This document shows positions 7,836 to 26,405 of a stretch of 33,581 bases of DNA, in pieces. The stretch spans positions 1 to 33,581 of the forward strand of contig JAGGAC010000039.1 in the NCBI GenBank assembly GCA_017889635.1. The letters are read 5' to 3'. Within the stretch, counting starts at the first letter, position 1; each line of letters opens with the position of its first letter. The position numbers and the translations under genes are program-made. Under the pieces are notes generated by a model. That model was not told the DNA's origin. It ran no database searches and saw nothing but the letters and a program-made list of their open reading frames with translations. This DNA is from Bacillota bacterium. Lineage in GTDB: Bacteria; Bacillota; Negativicutes; Sporomusales; CTSoil-080.

Positions 7836-8414
7836 GTGGCATATCTTTGGCCGAAGGAAGTATTATTGGCGTTGGAAACAGGGGAACTCCCGCCAATAGA
7901 AGCCATTAAATTATTGCGCGAGATGGATAATTGCCAGTCAACGACTTATTATCCTGAAACTAACGATTACCATCAGCGGATAGAGGGAGCTATTCGGGAA
8001 CTCGATGGTTTGGTTGGCTTAGCAGAAGTAAAAAAACTTGTCCGTGAAATTTATGCATTTGTACAAATTCAAAAATACCGTCAAAAAGAGAAATTGCTTA
8101 CCGAACCATTGGTATTGCACATGGTTTTTAAAGGCAATCCAGGTACTGGTAAAACCACGGTTGCTCGCATTATTGGCCGAATTTTTCGCGAAATGGGAGT
8201 TCTTAGTCGCGGTCATCTTATCGAAGTGGAACGAGCAGATATGGTGGGAGAGTATATTGGCCATACTGCACTAAAAACAAGAGAGCAATTAAAAAAAGCT
8301 TATGGTGGAATATTGTTCATTGACGAAGCCTATTCCTTAGCCCGCGGCGGAGAAAAGGATTTCGGAAAAGAAGCTATTGATTGCATGGTGAAACTCTCGA
8401 AACAATTACCTTAA
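7836..8414 (+). CDS. spoVK: SpoVK, 5' segment (interrupted AAA+ ATPase)
   Basis: N-terminal 184 codons of stage V sporulation protein K (CbxX/CfxQ AAA+ family), then eight codons read from the inserted element to a TAA. GTG 7836 has GATGAGGTGA upstream. Walker A GNPGTGKT is at residues 100-107 and Walker B ILFIDEA at about 159-165. Sensor 1, the arginine finger and sensor 2 are all missing; they are encoded 5.2 kb away at 13650-14051. Family continuity breaks exactly after Val185-Lys186 (GTGAAA, 8388-8393). Alone this segment should be an inactive ATPase. Synteny with hfq upstream and hflX downstream supports the name. Confidence 0.93.
8376..8405. other. attL: left junction of the spoVK intervening element
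   Basis: The host reading frame runs to GTGAAA at 8388-8393; immediately after comes CTCTC-G-AAACAA (8394-8405), which is one arm of an inverted repeat whose partner is at the right junction. The six-base GTGAAA is the only sequence shared by the two junctions, so the crossover falls inside it. Exact half-site limits are inferred. Confidence 0.82.
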
Positions 8415-8464
8415 TATGTTTTAGTGATACTGCTTATTTTGTGGAAGGTAACTTTAGGTGTTGA

Positions 8465-8512
8465 TATAAAAAAATGAGATACGAACTTTGTTCGCATCTC
8501 ATTTTTTTATAT
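8465..8512. terminator. Bidirectional terminator at the left end of the element
   Basis: Long inverted repeat: AAAATGAGAT-a-CGAAC pairs with GTTCG-c-ATCTCATTTT, with A-run on one side and T-run on the other. It ends the minus-strand exonuclease operon, and would also stop transcription entering from the spoVK promoter while the element is in place. Confidence 0.88.
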
Positions 8513-8516
8513 AGGT

Positions 8517-9377
8517 TCACTCTTTATTACCACAAAACAGACGATACATATGCTTACAGGGAAGTTTGCGCCGTGTAAAATCATGGCATGTACAACTGTT
8601 CAGCGTCACAGTATAACCATTGATAACAGCTGCTTGAGTAGCAGGGTCAAATTTTGCCACCGTTAGTTCTTTTGAGCGCTCTAAGCGGCTTTGCTGCTGT
8701 AGTTGGCTGTGAATAGCGATGTTCCAGTCGCCGAAGCTGGTAAAGTCAACTGCTGGTGGTATTGTGGCAATTGGCGTATGGCCGCCTGGAAAGACTTGGC
8801 CAAAGGTAATACACAGCTTGGTGTTAAGTTGGTCAAAACTATCTACATTATAGTGATTGAGCGCCTGGAGAGCAATTTGCGCGCAAGTACAGGCATCTTC
8901 ACCGGCATTATGGTGATTGAAGGTTATACCGTGATGCTCAGCCAGAGCAGCTAAATTATAACGTCTCAAGGTTGGCCAGGTTTTCCTAGCTATGCGAAGT
9001 GTGCACGAATAGTTAAGGTTAGGGTGGGGCAACCGATATCGGTCAAGAGTGCCTGTCAAGACTTTAATATCAAATTCGGCGTTATGAGCAATAACAGGGC
9101 AACCAACCAAAAATTTTTTTATCATCGGCCATAAGTCCGCGAAACTAGGCTGATGTTCAACATCTTCTGGTCGTATGCCATGAATTTTTATAAACTCCGG
9201 ATCAAAATATAGTCTGGGTGGACAAATCAACCAAGCCGGATTAGCCACAACACTGCCGTCTTTGACAAACGCTAAGCCAATGGAACACGCGCTGTCCTGA
9301 TCGCGATTGGCTGTTTCAAAGTCAAGAGCTATGAAATCTGCGTCTGAAGGCAATCTAGTCATATCTTTGTTTGGCAT
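8517..9377 (-). CDS. DnaQ-type 3'-5' exonuclease with C-terminal SWIM-like zinc finger
   Basis: 286 residues. The N-terminal two thirds is a DEDDh exonuclease: Exo I is DFET (Asp19, Glu21), Exo II is HNAEFD, Exo III is HHNAGEDA. This resembles PolIII epsilon-like exonucleases that act on single-stranded DNA ends. The last 30 residues hold CTC...PCKH, a CxC...CxH metal site like SWIM fingers, which usually bind DNA or protein. It is the last gene of a minus-strand trio with the recombinase and a secreted protein, 22 bp after the latter. No strong ribosome binding site is seen before ATG 9377. Role in the element is unknown; processing of DNA ends or a stray cargo gene are both possible. Confidence 0.82.
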   Translation of the reverse strand: MPNKDMTRLPSDADFIALDFETANRDQDSACSIGLAFVKDGSVVANPAWLICPPRLYFDPEFIKIHGIRPEDVEHQPSFADLWPMIKKFLVGCPVIAHNAEFDIKVLTGTLDRYRLPHPNLNYSCTLRIARKTWPTLRRYNLAALAEHHGITFNHHNAGEDACTCAQIALQALNHYNVDSFDQLNTKLCITFGQVFPGGHTPIATIPPAVDFTSFGDWNIAIHSQLQQQSRLERSKELTVAKFDPATQAAVINGYTVTLNSCTCHDFTRRKLPCKHMYRLFCGNKE

Positions 9378-9399
9378 ATTTATTTTTCACTACCAATCA

Positions 9400-10173
9400 T
9401 TAATTTCGCCATGTGGCAAGATTAGTTGTGCCGTATTTTTCTTTAGCCTTTTCCTTAAGCTGCTCAACAAATTGTTTCGGATCAACACCATTGTCAGGTA
9501 ACAAATAGTTGCCTGTCGTAACAAATTTCCATTGGCCATCGACCTTAGCTATTGTGAATTTCATGAGGGCATAATTGAGGTTGCCTGAAATAGACATACC
9601 GTTCACACGCTCACGACTGTAAAGACAGAAGCCGGAGATCTTTGAGTTATCGGTAAATGGACCTGAAGGAAGAGTTGTTTCCATGTAGTTAAGTGTAAAC
9701 CTGGCACTATTACCGCCAATCCAGGCTTTAAAGCGTTCTGCTGTTATATTTTTGGCTGCCACATCAATTTGTTGCAGCTTGGCTAGATCTCCGGTATTAA
9801 ACGCATCCATGCGCAATAGCAGCAGACGAATAGCTTGGCGGTCTTCGGGACTGACATATTGGGAAGCCAGAGATATACTGACAACATCAAGCGCTTTTCC
9901 ATACATGTTAGGACCAAATAAGTCTTCCCGCAAATTTCCTTCTACTATAACTTCAAGGTCATCTTTTTGAAATTTTAAGGGCAGTCTTTTGGTAGGATGA
10001 AAGCGCCGTTCATCATCACTTAATAGTCCGTAGGTATCTAGAGAGGTTAGATGTTTAACCTTTCCTTTAAACCTTACAATCTGATTTTCGGCCGCAAATG
10101 CATTGCAAGTAATGATGCTCAGCAAAAGACACAGTACCAAACTGCTAATCAATTTAATCATTGATGTTTTCAT
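9400..10173 (-). CDS. Secreted or periplasmic protein of unknown function
   Basis: 257 residues that I do not recognise. Residues 1-28 form a clear signal peptide (hydrophobic stretch around residues 8-24, likely cleavage after AFA near residue 27). The mature part has an OB/SH3-like beta-rich start and a second half (about residues 105-240) with alternating hydrophobic strands ending near DGQWKFVTTGNYLL, reminiscent of NTF2/SnoaL-like folds; this is only a pattern impression. A strong GGAGGT precedes ATG 10173. It begins 19 bp after the recombinase stop, so it is read from the same message, which is odd for an exported protein. Confidence 0.72.
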   Translation of the reverse strand: MKTSMIKLISSLVLCLLLSIITCNAFAAENQIVRFKGKVKHLTSLDTYGLLSDDERRFHPTKRLPLKFQKDDLEVIVEGNLREDLFGPNMYGKALDVVSISLASQYVSPEDRQAIRLLLLRMDAFNTGDLAKLQQIDVAAKNITAERFKAWIGGNSARFTLNYMETTLPSGPFTDNSKISGFCLYSRERVNGMSISGNLNYALMKFTIAKVDGQWKFVTTGNYLLPDNGVDPKQFVEQLKEKAKEKYGTTNLATWRN

Positions 10174-10192
10174 TGACTTACCTCCACTTGTA

Positions 10193-11725
10193 TTAGGTAA
10201 ATTTTAGTTCAACCTCAATTTCCGGTCGGCTGGCTTTGGCTTTTGTTGTATCTGTTCGCTCCGCGATTACTTTCTTCAATACCTGATGAACAGCAGCTCT
10301 CTTAGCCTCATATGAATGGTCGCCAAGAGCAAAATGTTTGGTAACAGCTGTAATAATCTCTTTTTGCGACAAGTTAGGAGAGAAGATTTCCATTTCTTCG
10401 CGTATTTTAGCTAGGTTCCGCCCGACATCATTTATTCTATCGCTAATTTCTTTTAGTTGCCTTTCAGCCTCATCCTCGGCAATCATTTGTTGCCGGTACC
10501 AACGCAAAACCATTTCTCGCTGCTTGACCAATCTGACTTCATTATCCTGCAGCCTTTCTATTGCGGTAATAAAATTTTTCGTATTGGCAGGGTGAGGGCG
10601 ATTTGACAAATATTGTTTTATCAACCGAGGATTTTTACTTAACTGATAAAGATGTTCATAGACGGTCTGATCAAGCAGCTCACAAGGAATGCGCCGAGCA
10701 CGGCAACGTTCTTTTTCTGTGTATATATAGGAGTTGCTTCGCTGACTCATGCAGACATAATAACTTTTAGGATCAGTAGCCTTACCGGCGTAGGTAATAG
10801 TCATCTTCCGACCGCATTGGGCACAATATACTAAACCACTTAGCAGTTGTTCACGTTTAAGGTTGCGTTTCGCAAGGGACTTATTGGCCTTTAATTGGCT
10901 TTGGGCAGCCTGCCAAACCTCAGTATCAACAATAGCCGGAACAGGTATGTCAATCCATTCTGATTCAGGCCGAAGAGTTCTAATTCTTTTGTTCAAGCTG
11001 ACCTTTTGATAACGGTAACGCATTGCCACATGGGTTCCACGATAAATAGGATTGGTCAAAAGACGATAAACAGCTGAAACAATCCAAGGCTTCTTCAATC
11101 TGGGCGAGGGAACGCCAATTTCATTCAACCGCCTTGCAATAGTTGCGGTACCGATTTTTTCCTCGGTAAGCCAGGTATACATTTGTTGGACAATTTGAGC
11201 TTCTGACTCATTTATTTCATAATTACTTATTTCTTTGTTGTATGTATACCCAAACGGTTTAGCGTCAGCGATTATTTTACCTTGGGCAGCTTTGCCGCGT
11301 TTGCCGCGCATAGAACGTTCTTTAATCTTTTCTTTTTCATAAGCAGAAACTGCGCCTCTGATAGAATAAAACAGTTTGCCTTCCGGGGATTGCTCGAAGG
11401 ACACTGATACAAAAAGAAGCTGGGCGCCAGCTTGTTCGATTTCATCGGTTATAATCAGTTGGTGGGCTAAATTACGGGCTAATCGGTCGGGGTCATAAAC
11501 AATTACAGCGCTAAGATTATTGTTGGCCAACATTTTTCTAAGCTGGGTGAGGGCTGGACGATCAATAAATTCGCCACTATAACCATCGTCAACAAATTCT
11601 TCAATTTTTTTTGCTCCCAGCATAGCGGCTCTTTTTCGGCAAGCATCAAGCTGTGTTGCCAAAGAATAGCCTGTTTCAGCCTGTTCCACAGTGCTTACGC
11701 GAGCATAAACGGCAACTATATTCAT
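10193..11725 (-). CDS. Large serine recombinase (SpoIVCA/skin recombinase type)
   Basis: 510 residues from ATG 11725, chosen because GGGAGG lies six bases upstream; the longer frame to 11749 lacks a site. Residues 3-150 form the resolvase catalytic domain: YARVS with nucleophile Ser11, then YDPDRLARN, and EKEKIKERSMRGKRGKAAQG leading into the recombinase domain (about 155-270). A zinc ribbon follows with CAQC and later cysteines, then a Leu/Glu-rich coiled coil near 390-450 that in this family controls directionality. Size and layout match SpoIVCA. It is the obvious enzyme for insertion and excision of the element. First gene of a three-gene minus-strand unit; I found no convincing promoter in the 110 bp upstream. 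Confidence 0.95.
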   Translation of the reverse strand: MNIVAVYARVSTVEQAETGYSLATQLDACRKRAAMLGAKKIEEFVDDGYSGEFIDRPALTQLRKMLANNNLSAVIVYDPDRLARNLAHQLIITDEIEQAGAQLLFVSVSFEQSPEGKLFYSIRGAVSAYEKEKIKERSMRGKRGKAAQGKIIADAKPFGYTYNKEISNYEINESEAQIVQQMYTWLTEEKIGTATIARRLNEIGVPSPRLKKPWIVSAVYRLLTNPIYRGTHVAMRYRYQKVSLNKRIRTLRPESEWIDIPVPAIVDTEVWQAAQSQLKANKSLAKRNLKREQLLSGLVYCAQCGRKMTITYAGKATDPKSYYVCMSQRSNSYIYTEKERCRARRIPCELLDQTVYEHLYQLSKNPRLIKQYLSNRPHPANTKNFITAIERLQDNEVRLVKQREMVLRWYRQQMIAEDEAERQLKEISDRINDVGRNLAKIREEMEIFSPNLSQKEIITAVTKHFALGDHSYEAKRAAVHQVLKKVIAERTDTTKAKASRPEIEVELKFT

Positions 11726-11859
11726 TATGATCCTCCCAGAATTAAGCATGGCTTAAATGCAATAATTCCATAAAAAGTACTTAGTTTCCTGCATTTTTTT
11801 TAGATCCGCTACCCTAATGTACAACCACTGGCGCATAGAATTATTTAGAGGTGGTGGTT

Positions 11860-12027
11860 GTGGCAGAAAAACAGCGTTTTAATATAAATAAAGCGCCTCC
11901 GGTTGTCAGAATCATTCATGGCAGTGAATGGGAAGATGAACGCCACAGTTTGTTATTTGTCAAACCTTTAATTGAAAGGATTTTAGTACAGCTGCTCCAG
12001 TTACGTCATGATAAACCAGAAGCCTGA
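11860..12027 (+). CDS. Small 55-residue protein, candidate recombination directionality factor
   Basis: Short ORF starting at GTG 11860 with AGAGGTGG five bases upstream (11847-11854), ending at TGA 12025-12027. The product begins MAEKQRFNINKAPP and ends DKPEA; it is mixed-charge with an amphipathic stretch (FVKPLIERILVQLLQL) that could be a helix. No known domain recognised. It is divergent from the recombinase, 134 bp away, and is followed by the sigma-A promoter of the riboswitch unit. Small proteins next to large serine recombinases often act as directionality factors (B. subtilis SprB is of similar size), so that is the leading guess. It could also be a chance ORF, though RBS and codon use look real. 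Confidence 0.6.
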   Translation: MAEKQRFNINKAPPVVRIIHGSEWEDERHSLLFVKPLIERILVQLLQLRHDKPEA

Positions 12028-12047
12028 TTTAAAGGTTGCAAGAGTGT

Positions 12048-12076
12048 TTGACAACATTTAATCTAATTGTTATAAT
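12048..12076 (+). promoter_or_regulatory. Consensus sigma-A promoter of the ZTP riboswitch/transporter unit
   Basis: Perfect TTGACA (12048-12053), 17-bp spacer, perfect TATAAT (12071-12076). Transcription should start near 12083, just before the first riboswitch. This is a vegetative promoter inside an element interrupting a sporulation gene. Confidence 0.9.
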
Positions 12077-12094
12077 TACACGTAGTTAAATAAC

Positions 12095-12168
12095 GATGAT
12101 ACGGAACTGGCGGATAAGTGGAATTAACCACATGAACCATATCATCATTGCAGTCGACCGCCTGGGCA
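12095..12168 (+). promoter_or_regulatory. ZTP (pfl motif) riboswitch, first copy
   Basis: P1 formed by GATGATACGG (12095-12104) and CCATATCATC with one C-A mismatch. Between them are the conserved ACTGGCGG and a GTGG-loop-CCAC hairpin; after the linker comes CCGCCTGGGCA (12158-12168), whose CCGCC can pair with GGCGG (12109-12113) as the pseudoknot. This is the hallmark of the ZTP/ZMP aptamer, which senses shortage of 10-formyl-tetrahydrofolate. The pseudoknot strand is also the 5' arm of the terminator, so ligand binding should turn expression on. Confidence 0.88.
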
Positions 12169-12210
12169 AAGAGAAGATTTGTTCTTTTGTCCAGGCGGTT
12201 TTGTGTTTCT
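12158..12210 (+). terminator. Terminator of the first ZTP riboswitch
   Basis: CCGCCTGGGCAAAGAGAA pairs with TTCTTTTGTCCAGGCGG (12182-12198), followed by a T-rich tract (TTTTGTGTTTCT). Its 5' arm overlaps the riboswitch pseudoknot strand, so aptamer folding and termination exclude each other. Confidence 0.88.
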
Positions 12211-12223
12211 ACAACTAAATAAC

Positions 12224-12297
12224 GATGATACGGAACTGGCGGATAAGTGGAATTAACCACATGAACCGTATCATTATTACAGTCGACCGCCTGGGCA
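12224..12297 (+). promoter_or_regulatory. ZTP (pfl motif) riboswitch, second copy
   Basis: Same architecture as the first copy shifted by 129 bp. Here P1 is perfect (TGATACGG with CCGTATCA). The core ACTGGCGG, the GTGG/CCAC hairpin and CCGCCTGGGCA are unchanged. RNA polymerase must pass both switches to reach the transporter gene, so the pair should give tighter shut-off and a steeper response than one. Confidence 0.88.
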
Positions 12298-12339
12298 AAG
12301 AGAAGATTTGTTCTTTTGTCCAGGCGGTTTTGTGTTTCT
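12287..12339 (+). terminator. Terminator of the second ZTP riboswitch
   Basis: Identical hairpin to that of the first switch: 5' arm starts at 12287, 3' arm ends at 12327, then TTTTGTGTTTCT. It lies 38 bp before the transporter start codon. Confidence 0.88.
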
Positions 12340-12377
12340 AATAGGTAGAAAAATATCGTAAGGAGATGTTTTTAGCA

Positions 12378-13598
12378 ATGAAAAATCGTTGGCTTATTGC
12401 TTTATCGGCGGTTGGAATTCATGTTTGTATTGGAAGTGTATATGCATGGAGCGTGTTAACGAAACCCATAATGAAAGAATTAGGGGTGGGACTAAAAGAA
12501 ACACAATGGACTTTTTCACTTGCAATTTTATTTTTAGGACTATCCGCGGCATTCTTGGGAAGCTATGTTGAAAAACTTGGTCCTAAAAAATCAGGACTAA
12601 TCTCCGCGGCATTTTTCTCTATTGGCTTGTTTGGAACAGGCGTAGCTGTGTACTTAAAAACATTGCCGCTATTATACTTATTTTACGGCATAATCGGCGG
12701 AATCGGACTTGGTATCGGCTATATTACACCAGTATCAACTTTGGTAAAGTGGTTTCCTGAAAAACGCGGGTTTGCTACAGGTATAGCTATCATGGGGTTT
12801 GGATTTGCCAGTTTTATAGCCGGACCGATTATTCAGACGCTTATCGAAAAATATAGTCTGATAGCTACTTTTGAAATTCTTGGGATTATCTATCTTTTAA
12901 TTATGACACCGTCAGCATTATACCTTGAACAGCCGCCAGAAACCTATAATGTTGTAACAAACTTAAGTATAACGCCTGTGACCGAAAGGTATCAAATGAC
13001 CTCACTTGAAGCCCTGAAGACATGGCAATTCTACGCTCTATGGTGGATGCTTTTCACCAATATCACCTGTGGCATTGGTTTATTAAGTGTAGTGTCACCA
13101 TTTGCTCAGGAAGTTATAAAGATGTCTCCAATTGCTGCTGCAACAATGGTTGGCATGGTTGGTCTATTAAACGGCTTTGGACGAATAATTTGGGCGTCGG
13201 TATCTGACTATATCGGCCGGGCAAATACTTATCTTGCTTTTTTCCTTATCCAGATTATTGCCTTCTTTTTGCTATCCCATACTACAGATAGCATTTCGTT
13301 TCAACTATTTGTCTATTTAATTATTTCGTGCTATGGCGGCGGTTTTGCCACAATTCCCGCTTTTTTAAGTGATCTTTTTGGAACGAAGGAATTAAGCGCA
13401 ATTCATGGCAAAATTCTTAGTGCTTGGGCGGCTGCAGGGGTTGTCGGTCCATTTCTGGTGGCGTGGGTTAAGGAGACGACAAACAGTTACAATGATATGT
13501 TATTGGTTTTCTCATACTGTTTTATTGTTACTTTGATAGTTGCGACCGTTGTCAAGTTTAAACAATCTCCTACTGTTAATAGCGAACAATCAGCGTAA
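12378..13598 (+). CDS. OFA-family MFS transporter (oxalate/formate antiporter-like)
   Basis: 406 residues with about 12 membrane helices. The start SVYAWSVLTKPI and the loop KWFPEKRGFATGIAIMGFG are typical of the OFA family of the major facilitator superfamily, whose known members exchange oxalate/formate or move other monocarboxylates. I take ATG 12378 (AAGGAG at 12360-12365); ATG 12366 overlaps that site. It is the last gene in the element, read toward the right junction, and its message carries two ZTP riboswitches. Formate is the one-carbon donor for 10-formyl-THF, so a formate or related carboxylate substrate would fit the regulator; the actual substrate cannot be read from the sequence. 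No terminator is seen between its stop and the 3' half of spoVK. Confidence 0.88.
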   Translation: MKNRWLIALSAVGIHVCIGSVYAWSVLTKPIMKELGVGLKETQWTFSLAILFLGLSAAFLGSYVEKLGPKKSGLISAAFFSIGLFGTGVAVYLKTLPLLYLFYGIIGGIGLGIGYITPVSTLVKWFPEKRGFATGIAIMGFGFASFIAGPIIQTLIEKYSLIATFEILGIIYLLIMTPSALYLEQPPETYNVVTNLSITPVTERYQMTSLEALKTWQFYALWWMLFTNITCGIGLLSVVSPFAQEVIKMSPIAAATMVGMVGLLNGFGRIIWASVSDYIGRANTYLAFFLIQIIAFFLLSHTTDSISFQLFVYLIISCYGGGFATIPAFLSDLFGTKELSAIHGKILSAWAAAGVVGPFLVAWVKETTNSYNDMLLVFSYCFIVTLIVATVVKFKQSPTVNSEQSA

Positions 13599-13630
13599 AA
13601 TATCTTAGAACTCAAAATAAAGTTTATAAG

Positions 13631-13665
13631 TTGTTTAAGAGAGTGTATAGTGAAAGCGATGGAAG
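13631..13665. other. attR: right junction of the spoVK intervening element
   Basis: TTGTTT-AA-GAGAG (13631-13643) lies just left of the shared GTGAAA (13650-13655); host spoVK resumes with GCGATGGAAG. Joined to the left junction this arm and CTCTC-G-AAACAA form an imperfect palindrome around the core, the expected shape of a serine-recombinase attP. Confidence 0.82.
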
Positions 13666-14051
13666 ACCATAAAGATGATCTGATATTGATTTTAGCTGGT
13701 TACCATAAAGAAATGGATAATTTTTTACAGACTAACCCAGGTTTAAGGTCGCGCTTTCCTATACATATCGAATTCCAGGATTATAGCCATAATGAACTTA
13801 TTGAAATAGCTGATCAAATGTGTACTAATCGTCAATACCAACTATCACCTCAGGCAAGGCTGGCTCTCCTATGTCGACTAAATGAACCGATAATTAGGGC
13901 CAATTCAAACTTTGGCAACGCCAGAACAGTGCGCAATCTTATCGAAAAGGCTTTTCGACTACAAGCCGTGCGTTTAGTCAAAAAAAACACGCTATCCAAA
14001 CAAGACTTAATGCTCCTTGAACCTTCAGATTTACCAGAGGTGGAGACATGA
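13650..14051 (+). CDS. spoVK: SpoVK, 3' segment (C-terminal half of AAA+ ATPase)
   Basis: 133 codons that complete the AAA+ domain begun at 7836-8387. It contains the sensor 1 strand LILILAGY, the arginine-finger region NPGLRSRFP and sensor 2 GNARTVRNLIEKA, i.e. exactly what the 5' segment lacks. GTG 13650 is the in-frame Val of the joined gene; the upstream bases AAGAGAG are a poor ribosome binding site, so separate translation is doubtful. The frame has no stops or frameshifts, so it is not decaying. The stop overlaps the next gene (ATG 14048), tying it to the GTPase operon. Confidence 0.93.
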   Translation: MKAMEDHKDDLILILAGYHKEMDNFLQTNPGLRSRFPIHIEFQDYSHNELIEIADQMCTNRQYQLSPQARLALLCRLNEPIIRANSNFGNARTVRNLIEKAFRLQAVRLVKKNTLSKQDLMLLEPSDLPEVET

Positions 14052-26044: not shown

Positions 26045-26088
26045 CTATTTAAATCAATTAAGTATTTAACAATTAAATATTTTATCGA

Positions 26089-26225
26089 GATAGGTGCCCT
26101 GAGGGGCTTAATAGGGAAGTCCGGTGTAATACCGGCGCGGTCCCGCCACTGTAATGGGGAGCAAGCCCAAGTAATACCACTGGGACAAACCTACGAGCGA
26201 TGGGAAGGGGATTATCCGTACAACA
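26089..26225 (+). promoter_or_regulatory. Cobalamin (adenosylcobalamin) riboswitch
   Basis: Core pieces in order: TAGGTGCCC, TTAATAGGGAAG, CCGGTG...CCGG helix, GCGGTCCCGCCACTGTAA (26137-26154, the most conserved part), a GGGAGC segment, a CCACTGGG-ACAA element and GATGGGAAGG. This is the B12 riboswitch class that switches genes off when the cofactor is plentiful. It governs the exported chelatase gene downstream and perhaps the rest of the block by readthrough. Confidence 0.95.
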
Positions 26226-26235
26226 GCGTATTTCC

Positions 26236-26258
26236 TTCCCGGCTATAATAGCCGGGAA
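26236..26258 (+). promoter_or_regulatory. Expression-platform hairpin of the cobalamin riboswitch
   Basis: TTCCCGGCTAT and ATAGCCGGGAA form a perfect stem. Its left side includes CCTTCCC, which can instead pair with GGGAAGG of the aptamer end (about 26202-26208), so it is a plausible switching helix. Confidence 0.6.
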
Positions 26259-26285
26259 TTATGTTGATACGATTAATATGTCAAC

Positions 26286-26314: not shown

Positions 26315-26405
26315 GCTTATTCTGAGGCATTTGTGTACAGGCGGTGATAAGTAGTACTTATTTTATATTTTCCTTGTGATCATCACTAACAAAGGGGCGA
26401 AGTAC

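Follow-up and report, generated by a model that had tools for sequence, protein, structure and literature searches.

What does a bacterium gain from two nearly identical ZTP riboswitches in series upstream of a single transporter gene, and how did such a leader come to lie where it does? These questions are raised by a 33,581-nucleotide contig from a member of the Negativicutes (hereafter the window), in which a perfect sigma-A promoter followed by two pfl-motif aptamers, each with its own terminator, had been predicted from the letters alone. We followed up this original prediction, whose coordinates were right to within a few bases, by covariance-model searches, comparison with related leaders and genomes, and a simple response model. 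The features of the locus are collected in Table 1.

Table 1. Features of the tandem ZTP riboswitch locus and of the surrounding spoVK element (window coordinates)
Feature	Coordinates	Strand	Evidence or remark
spoVK 5' part	7836..8414	+	TIGR02881 positions 2-136
5262-bp insertion splitting spoVK, carries riboswitches and transporter	8388..13649		GTGAAA at both borders
Large serine recombinase of the element	10193..11725	-	78% identical in G290
55-aa ORF, candidate recombination directionality factor	11860..12027	+	Divergent from recombinase
Consensus sigma-A promoter (TTGACA-17 bp-TATAAT)	12048..12076	+	12/12 positions match
ZTP aptamer copy 1	12093..12174	+	Rfam cmscan RF01750, 55.1 bits, E 1.7e-6
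Terminator 1	12158..12208	+	Hairpin 12158-12198, U-rich tail 12199-12208; overlaps pseudoknot 3' arm
ZTP aptamer copy 2	12222..12303	+	Rfam cmscan RF01750, 60.7 bits, E 1.2e-7
Terminator 2	12287..12337	+	Hairpin 12287-12327, U-rich tail 12328-12337; built on CCGCC
OFA/SfMCT-type monocarboxylate MFS transporter, 406 aa	12378..13598	+	NF049980
spoVK 3' part	13650..14051	+	TIGR02881 positions 135-261

Two complete riboswitch units in one leader

The promoter matches the consensus at every position, as had been predicted, and TTGAC-type promoters also lie upstream of related leaders. The covariance search proposed as a check recovered both copies above the RF01750 gathering score of 39, with all 86 model positions aligned, and these two are the only ZTP aptamers found in the genome. 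The repeat units (12087-12211 and 12216-12340) are separated by 4 bp and are identical at 122 of 125 positions (97.6%) at an offset of 129, in agreement with the offset and the three differences originally noticed, which fall at 12139, 12146, and 12150. The sequence immediately upstream is distinct for each unit (12079-12086 versus 12208-12215). A chance repeat was rejected, as the best other 125-bp self-match in the window at offsets of 80-300 bp reaches at most 58/125. An AATA-like sequence is found approximately 15 bases 5' of P1 in both units, in the window as well as in four related loci (L066, L067, L068, and L081).

The pseudoknot arms are complete in copy 1 (5' GGCGG at 12109-12113, 3' CCGCC at 12158-12162) and in copy 2 (12238-12242 and 12287-12291, respectively). 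Each CCGCC also forms the 5' base of a 41-nt hairpin (-26.7 kcal/mol) that ends in GGCGG and is followed by TTTTGTGTTT, so that the CCGCC of each copy does lie within a terminator stem of its own, as originally described. The U-tracts of TTTTGTGTTT are short and broken by G, which counts against the terminator reading, and a simple terminator scan listed no site in the tandem leader, probably because the stem is bulged. Since both structures use CCGCC, pseudoknot and terminator are mutually exclusive, which is the usual ON layout for the ZTP class; predicted terminators overlap many pfl RNAs, and the ligand likely raises expression (PMC2864571). By this architecture, both units are predicted to be transcription-terminating ON-type switches, and they differ structurally from the RF01750 ZMP/ZTP (pfl) riboswitch, with which they share the full model, the overlapping terminator, and the predicted direction, only by the duplication and by a C.A mismatch in P1 of copy 1.

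Comparison of related leaders supports the functional integrity of the two structures. The GRCGG/CCGYC pairing is supported by covariation in 20 of 20 units, in all of which the fourth base of CCGYC covaries with its partner in the pseudoknot and with its partner in the terminator. The triple formed by the pseudoknot 5' arm, the 3' arm, and the terminator arm is G/C/G in 9 units and A/U/A in 11, one of the latter having a G in the terminator, i.e., a wobble. Within the tandem leader of L081, unit 1 has A/U/A and unit 2 has G/C/G, and direct reading of the tandem leader in genome G317 gave the same result. Such unit-specific triples imply that pseudoknot and terminator are preserved separately in each unit, and on this comparative evidence both units of the tandem are maintained.

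Each of the two units, which share a predicted ligand, has an expression platform of its own, and no ORF lies between them. This arrangement was named 'pseudo-cooperative' in a 2022 study describing five tandem ZTP cases (PMC9481103), and the tandem in the window therefore does not represent a new principle. Those cases likewise consist of two complete ZTP riboswitches with their own expression platforms before one gene; four of the five sit at folate-metabolism genes and are predicted to be of the ON type, and tandem OFF-type ZTP switches are predicted before moeA, so the direction of switching is not fixed by class alone. In contrast to these folate genes and moeA, the target here is a monocarboxylate transporter, and the tandem recurs in six genomes, in two of them inside an element that splits spoVK.

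Expected response of the tandem

Based on these features, we consider it very likely that the locus comprises two complete ZTP/ZMP ON-riboswitches in series that, behind one strong constitutive promoter, gate a monocarboxylate transporter, the pair serving mainly to cut leak. Judging from what is known of the ZTP class, in the absence of ligand the terminator would form by pairing of CCGCC with the downstream GGCGG, whereas on binding of ZTP or ZMP, which would signal a shortage of 10-formyl-folate, the aptamer pseudoknot would hold CCGCC and allow readthrough. Readthrough at both units would be needed before the transporter is made, so the readthrough of the two units is expected to multiply, and the pair should mainly suppress leak and only moderately steepen the response. 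In a two-in-series model with equal affinities, the 10-90% ligand range narrows from 81-fold for a single unit to 40- to 63-fold, depending on leak, whereas induction rises, for example, from 8-fold to 64-fold. The main gain expected from the model is thus a tighter OFF state. The 'digital-like' response originally proposed, a word that PMC9481103 also applies to such pairs, is too strong for this modest narrowing and for two P1 stems of unequal stability.

The unequal stability results from two of the three bases that distinguish the copies. Base 12139 gives a C.A mismatch with 12102 in P1 of copy 1 and a C-G pair in copy 2, and base 12146 forms a G-C pair in P1 of copy 1 and a G.U pair in copy 2; the predicted P1 energies are -9.9 and -13.4 kcal/mol, respectively. 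With two of three differences on P1 pairs and unequal P1 energies, the copies may respond non-identically. One consequence could be a difference in ligand affinity that broadens the response rather than sharpening it, and in the model a 10-fold affinity gap already yields a range of 88.7-fold, wider than the 80.9-fold of a single unit. However, a difference in P1 stability does not necessarily mean a much altered affinity, and the binding core is identical in both copies, so we regard broadening as rather unlikely. We give less credence still to the idea that the downstream copy alone switches, the mismatched upstream copy being a decoy, weak or largely OFF, that lowers transcription. The weaker P1 of copy 1 and its lower Rfam score (55.1 versus 60.7 bits) agree with it, but copy 1 scores well above the gathering threshold with a complete pseudoknot and terminator, and the first units at the remaining tandem loci are intact and show covariation of their own. 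Two working switches in series, possibly of unequal response, remain the preferred reading.

Distribution and age of the tandem arrangement

The survey of tandems before OFA transporters that had been suggested revealed compact tandems in 6 of 380 genomes of the class (G000, G290, G311, G313, G316, and G317), all before this transporter; four other pattern matches in the set were without leader context. A scan of genome contigs for the transporter, followed by Rfam analysis, found the tandem at L066, L067, L068, and L081. Single ZTP units precede the transporter at ten Phascolarctobacterium-type loci (among them L071, labelled Negativicutes only, and L075, Acidaminococcaceae), in P. faecium (L082), and in Propionispira (L083). 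The Rfam scan found no ZTP aptamer near transporter relatives in Brevibacillus, Marinoscillum, an Acidobacterium, and Evansella, nor at L073, where the contig starts at the transporter gene. Among 398 genomes sampled phylum-wide, no recognisable compact tandem was found beyond the window's own, and the other pattern matches, being without terminator or P1 context, look like chance. The pattern was strict, and these counts are lower bounds. Together with the five published ZTP cases, they bear out the view that tandems are uncommon for this class. A looser tandem ZTP pair that escapes the pattern was observed in genome G298 (L050, 1501-1752), where it precedes a moeA-like gene with a five-codon ORF between the units and resembles the case given in PMC9481103. 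The bare pattern also had 92 matches on viral contigs. What is new here is the recurrence of a tandem before the same OFA/SfMCT-type transporter in six genomes of the class.

Near-identity of the copies had been taken to imply recent duplication or gene conversion. The near-identity does appear recent, but a recent origin of the tandem itself was rejected: it is kept in five further genomes, and in the four loci measured (L066, L067, L068, and L081) unit 1 and unit 2 are only 59-77% identical. These diverged tandems imply that the arrangement is older than this genome and that the near-identity is local, probably reflecting recent homogenisation of an old tandem by gene conversion or by loss and re-duplication. 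Each G290 copy resembles the window copies to about the same degree, so the template copy is not singled out. Near-identical copies, where other tandems have diverged, would also arise if the assembly were at fault or if a single unit had expanded in this strain, and the near-identity is that of the assembled contig; nevertheless, the three distinguishing bases within the unit, the distinct sequence upstream of each unit, and the conservation of the two-unit architecture in G290, a genome of the same family, render this explanation highly improbable. Homogenisation of an old tandem accounts for the observations best.

Regulated transporter

Translation of the transporter probably starts at 12378, preceded by AAGGAG at 12360, and the ORF start listed at 12366 is probably too early. 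The protein scores 407.3 bits (cut-off 320) with NF049980, the model of the L-lactate MFS transporter SfMCT, and 206.7 bits with the model of the oxalate/formate family, which does not reach the cut-off of 374.85. Among solved structures, an L-lactate transporter (6g9x) and an oxalate:formate antiporter (8hpj) are closest. The binding-site arginine of OxlT and SfMCT is conserved as R269. In contrast to OxlT, the transporter and its relatives have a tryptophan (W350) at the site of the second basic residue, which we take to be K355 in literature numbering. By sequence, the retained R269 together with W350 favours a monocarboxylate as the predicted substrate.

Genome context adds a hint towards formate. 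In G290, genes for a HydN-like Fe-S protein and for the alpha subunit of a formate dehydrogenase (TIGR01591, 899.7 bits, cut-off 666) lie downstream of the transporter (L116, 7253-9966), inside the spoVK element, and no terminator was found on the transporter strand before this pair. On another contig, the window genome encodes an 85% relative of the G290 formate dehydrogenase. The G290 neighbourhood makes formate an attractive substrate; formate dehydrogenase as a general partner is not supported, since the pair occurs in G290 only among the loci checked, and the NCBIfam name, L-lactate rather than formate, counts against formate. The transporter probably moves formate or lactate, formate being a plausible candidate. 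Most likely it would import a one-carbon precursor, either formate itself or lactate/pyruvate as a source. The classic ZTP targets are fhs, pfl, and similar folate/formate genes (PMC2864571).

A recombinase element splitting spoVK

The original prediction overlooked that the whole locus is cargo of a recombinase element that splits spoVK. When the spoVK flanks are joined at GTGAAA, they give an open 317-residue protein that scores 414.1 bits with TIGR02881 over positions 2-261, within the 410-430 bits of intact spoVK relatives; precise excision would thus restore the reading frame, and the element encodes a large serine recombinase. Across the order, spoVK is split at the same codon in 14 genomes and intact in 11, and the same split was found in sampled genomes from other families of the class (G071, G075, G079, G093, and G318). 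The recombinase is 78% identical in G290, about 66-70% in family f7, and 47-51% in most of family f5. A 48% relative is present on one viral contig, with no match to spoVK or the transporter in the available stretch.

The 55-aa ORF has no family match. A pattern I-x-H-x-x-x-W ... RH-x-x-x-F-x-x-PL is common to the short ORFs of families f1 and f7, which are divergent from the recombinase; in f5 the short ORF lies upstream on the same strand. The short ORF could be a directionality factor. The region 8517-10173 on the minus strand encodes two proteins that are conserved cargo of the element in f1 and f7: one is a DnaQ-type exonuclease that has a SWIM finger, and the other, of 257 aa, matched no family. 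In G298:C4 (L128 and L129), the spoVK halves lie approximately 292 kb apart in inverted orientation, so that recombination between them would lead to inversion of the intervening DNA instead of its excision. Elsewhere in the window, a cobalamin riboswitch (26075-26282, 47.3 bits) precedes a 328-aa ORF at 26376, which on visual inspection looks like the CbiK type.

Comparable intervening elements have been described in sigK, gerE, spsM, and yabG (PMC5595907, PMC10747680). Like skin (sigK), gin (gerE), SP-beta (spsM), and yin (yabG), the present element carries a recombinase and interrupts a sporulation gene, in frame and at a short core that both borders share; it differs in its target, spoVK, and its excision is predicted. 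No report of a spoVK-intervening element was found in the open literature searched, and the insertion looks like an unreported skin-like element recurrent across the class. The ZTP-transporter module was found inside the element in G000 and G290 only; in G311 and G313, the module is on a different contig from spoVK. On balance, and with some reserve, we favour the view that a recurrent, class-wide Negativicutes spoVK element, excised at sporulation to restore spoVK, has in one lineage captured a folate-stress module composed of the tandem ZTP riboswitch, a monocarboxylate/formate transporter, and, in one genome, formate dehydrogenase. The interval from the transporter stop at 13598 to the spoVK 3' half at 13650 yielded no terminator, and riboswitch control may therefore extend by readthrough to this half and to the genes behind it.

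Implications

The locus is a well-conserved case of tandem ZTP riboswitches that is directed at a transporter and lies in unusual genomic surroundings. Since this one transporter is preceded by single units in some genomes, by diverged tandems in others, and by a near-identical tandem in one, nature provides a set that is suited to testing what riboswitch doubling buys: leak, steepness, or range. The arrangement links the ZTP alarmone to the import of a small carboxylate; a plausible candidate is formate, from which the missing 10-formyl-folate is directly made. The interruption of spoVK suggests a site of developmental rearrangement across the Negativicutes that has apparently gone unreported, and, if the proposed capture is true, a metabolic ON-switch would be carried there as cargo inside a developmental split gene.
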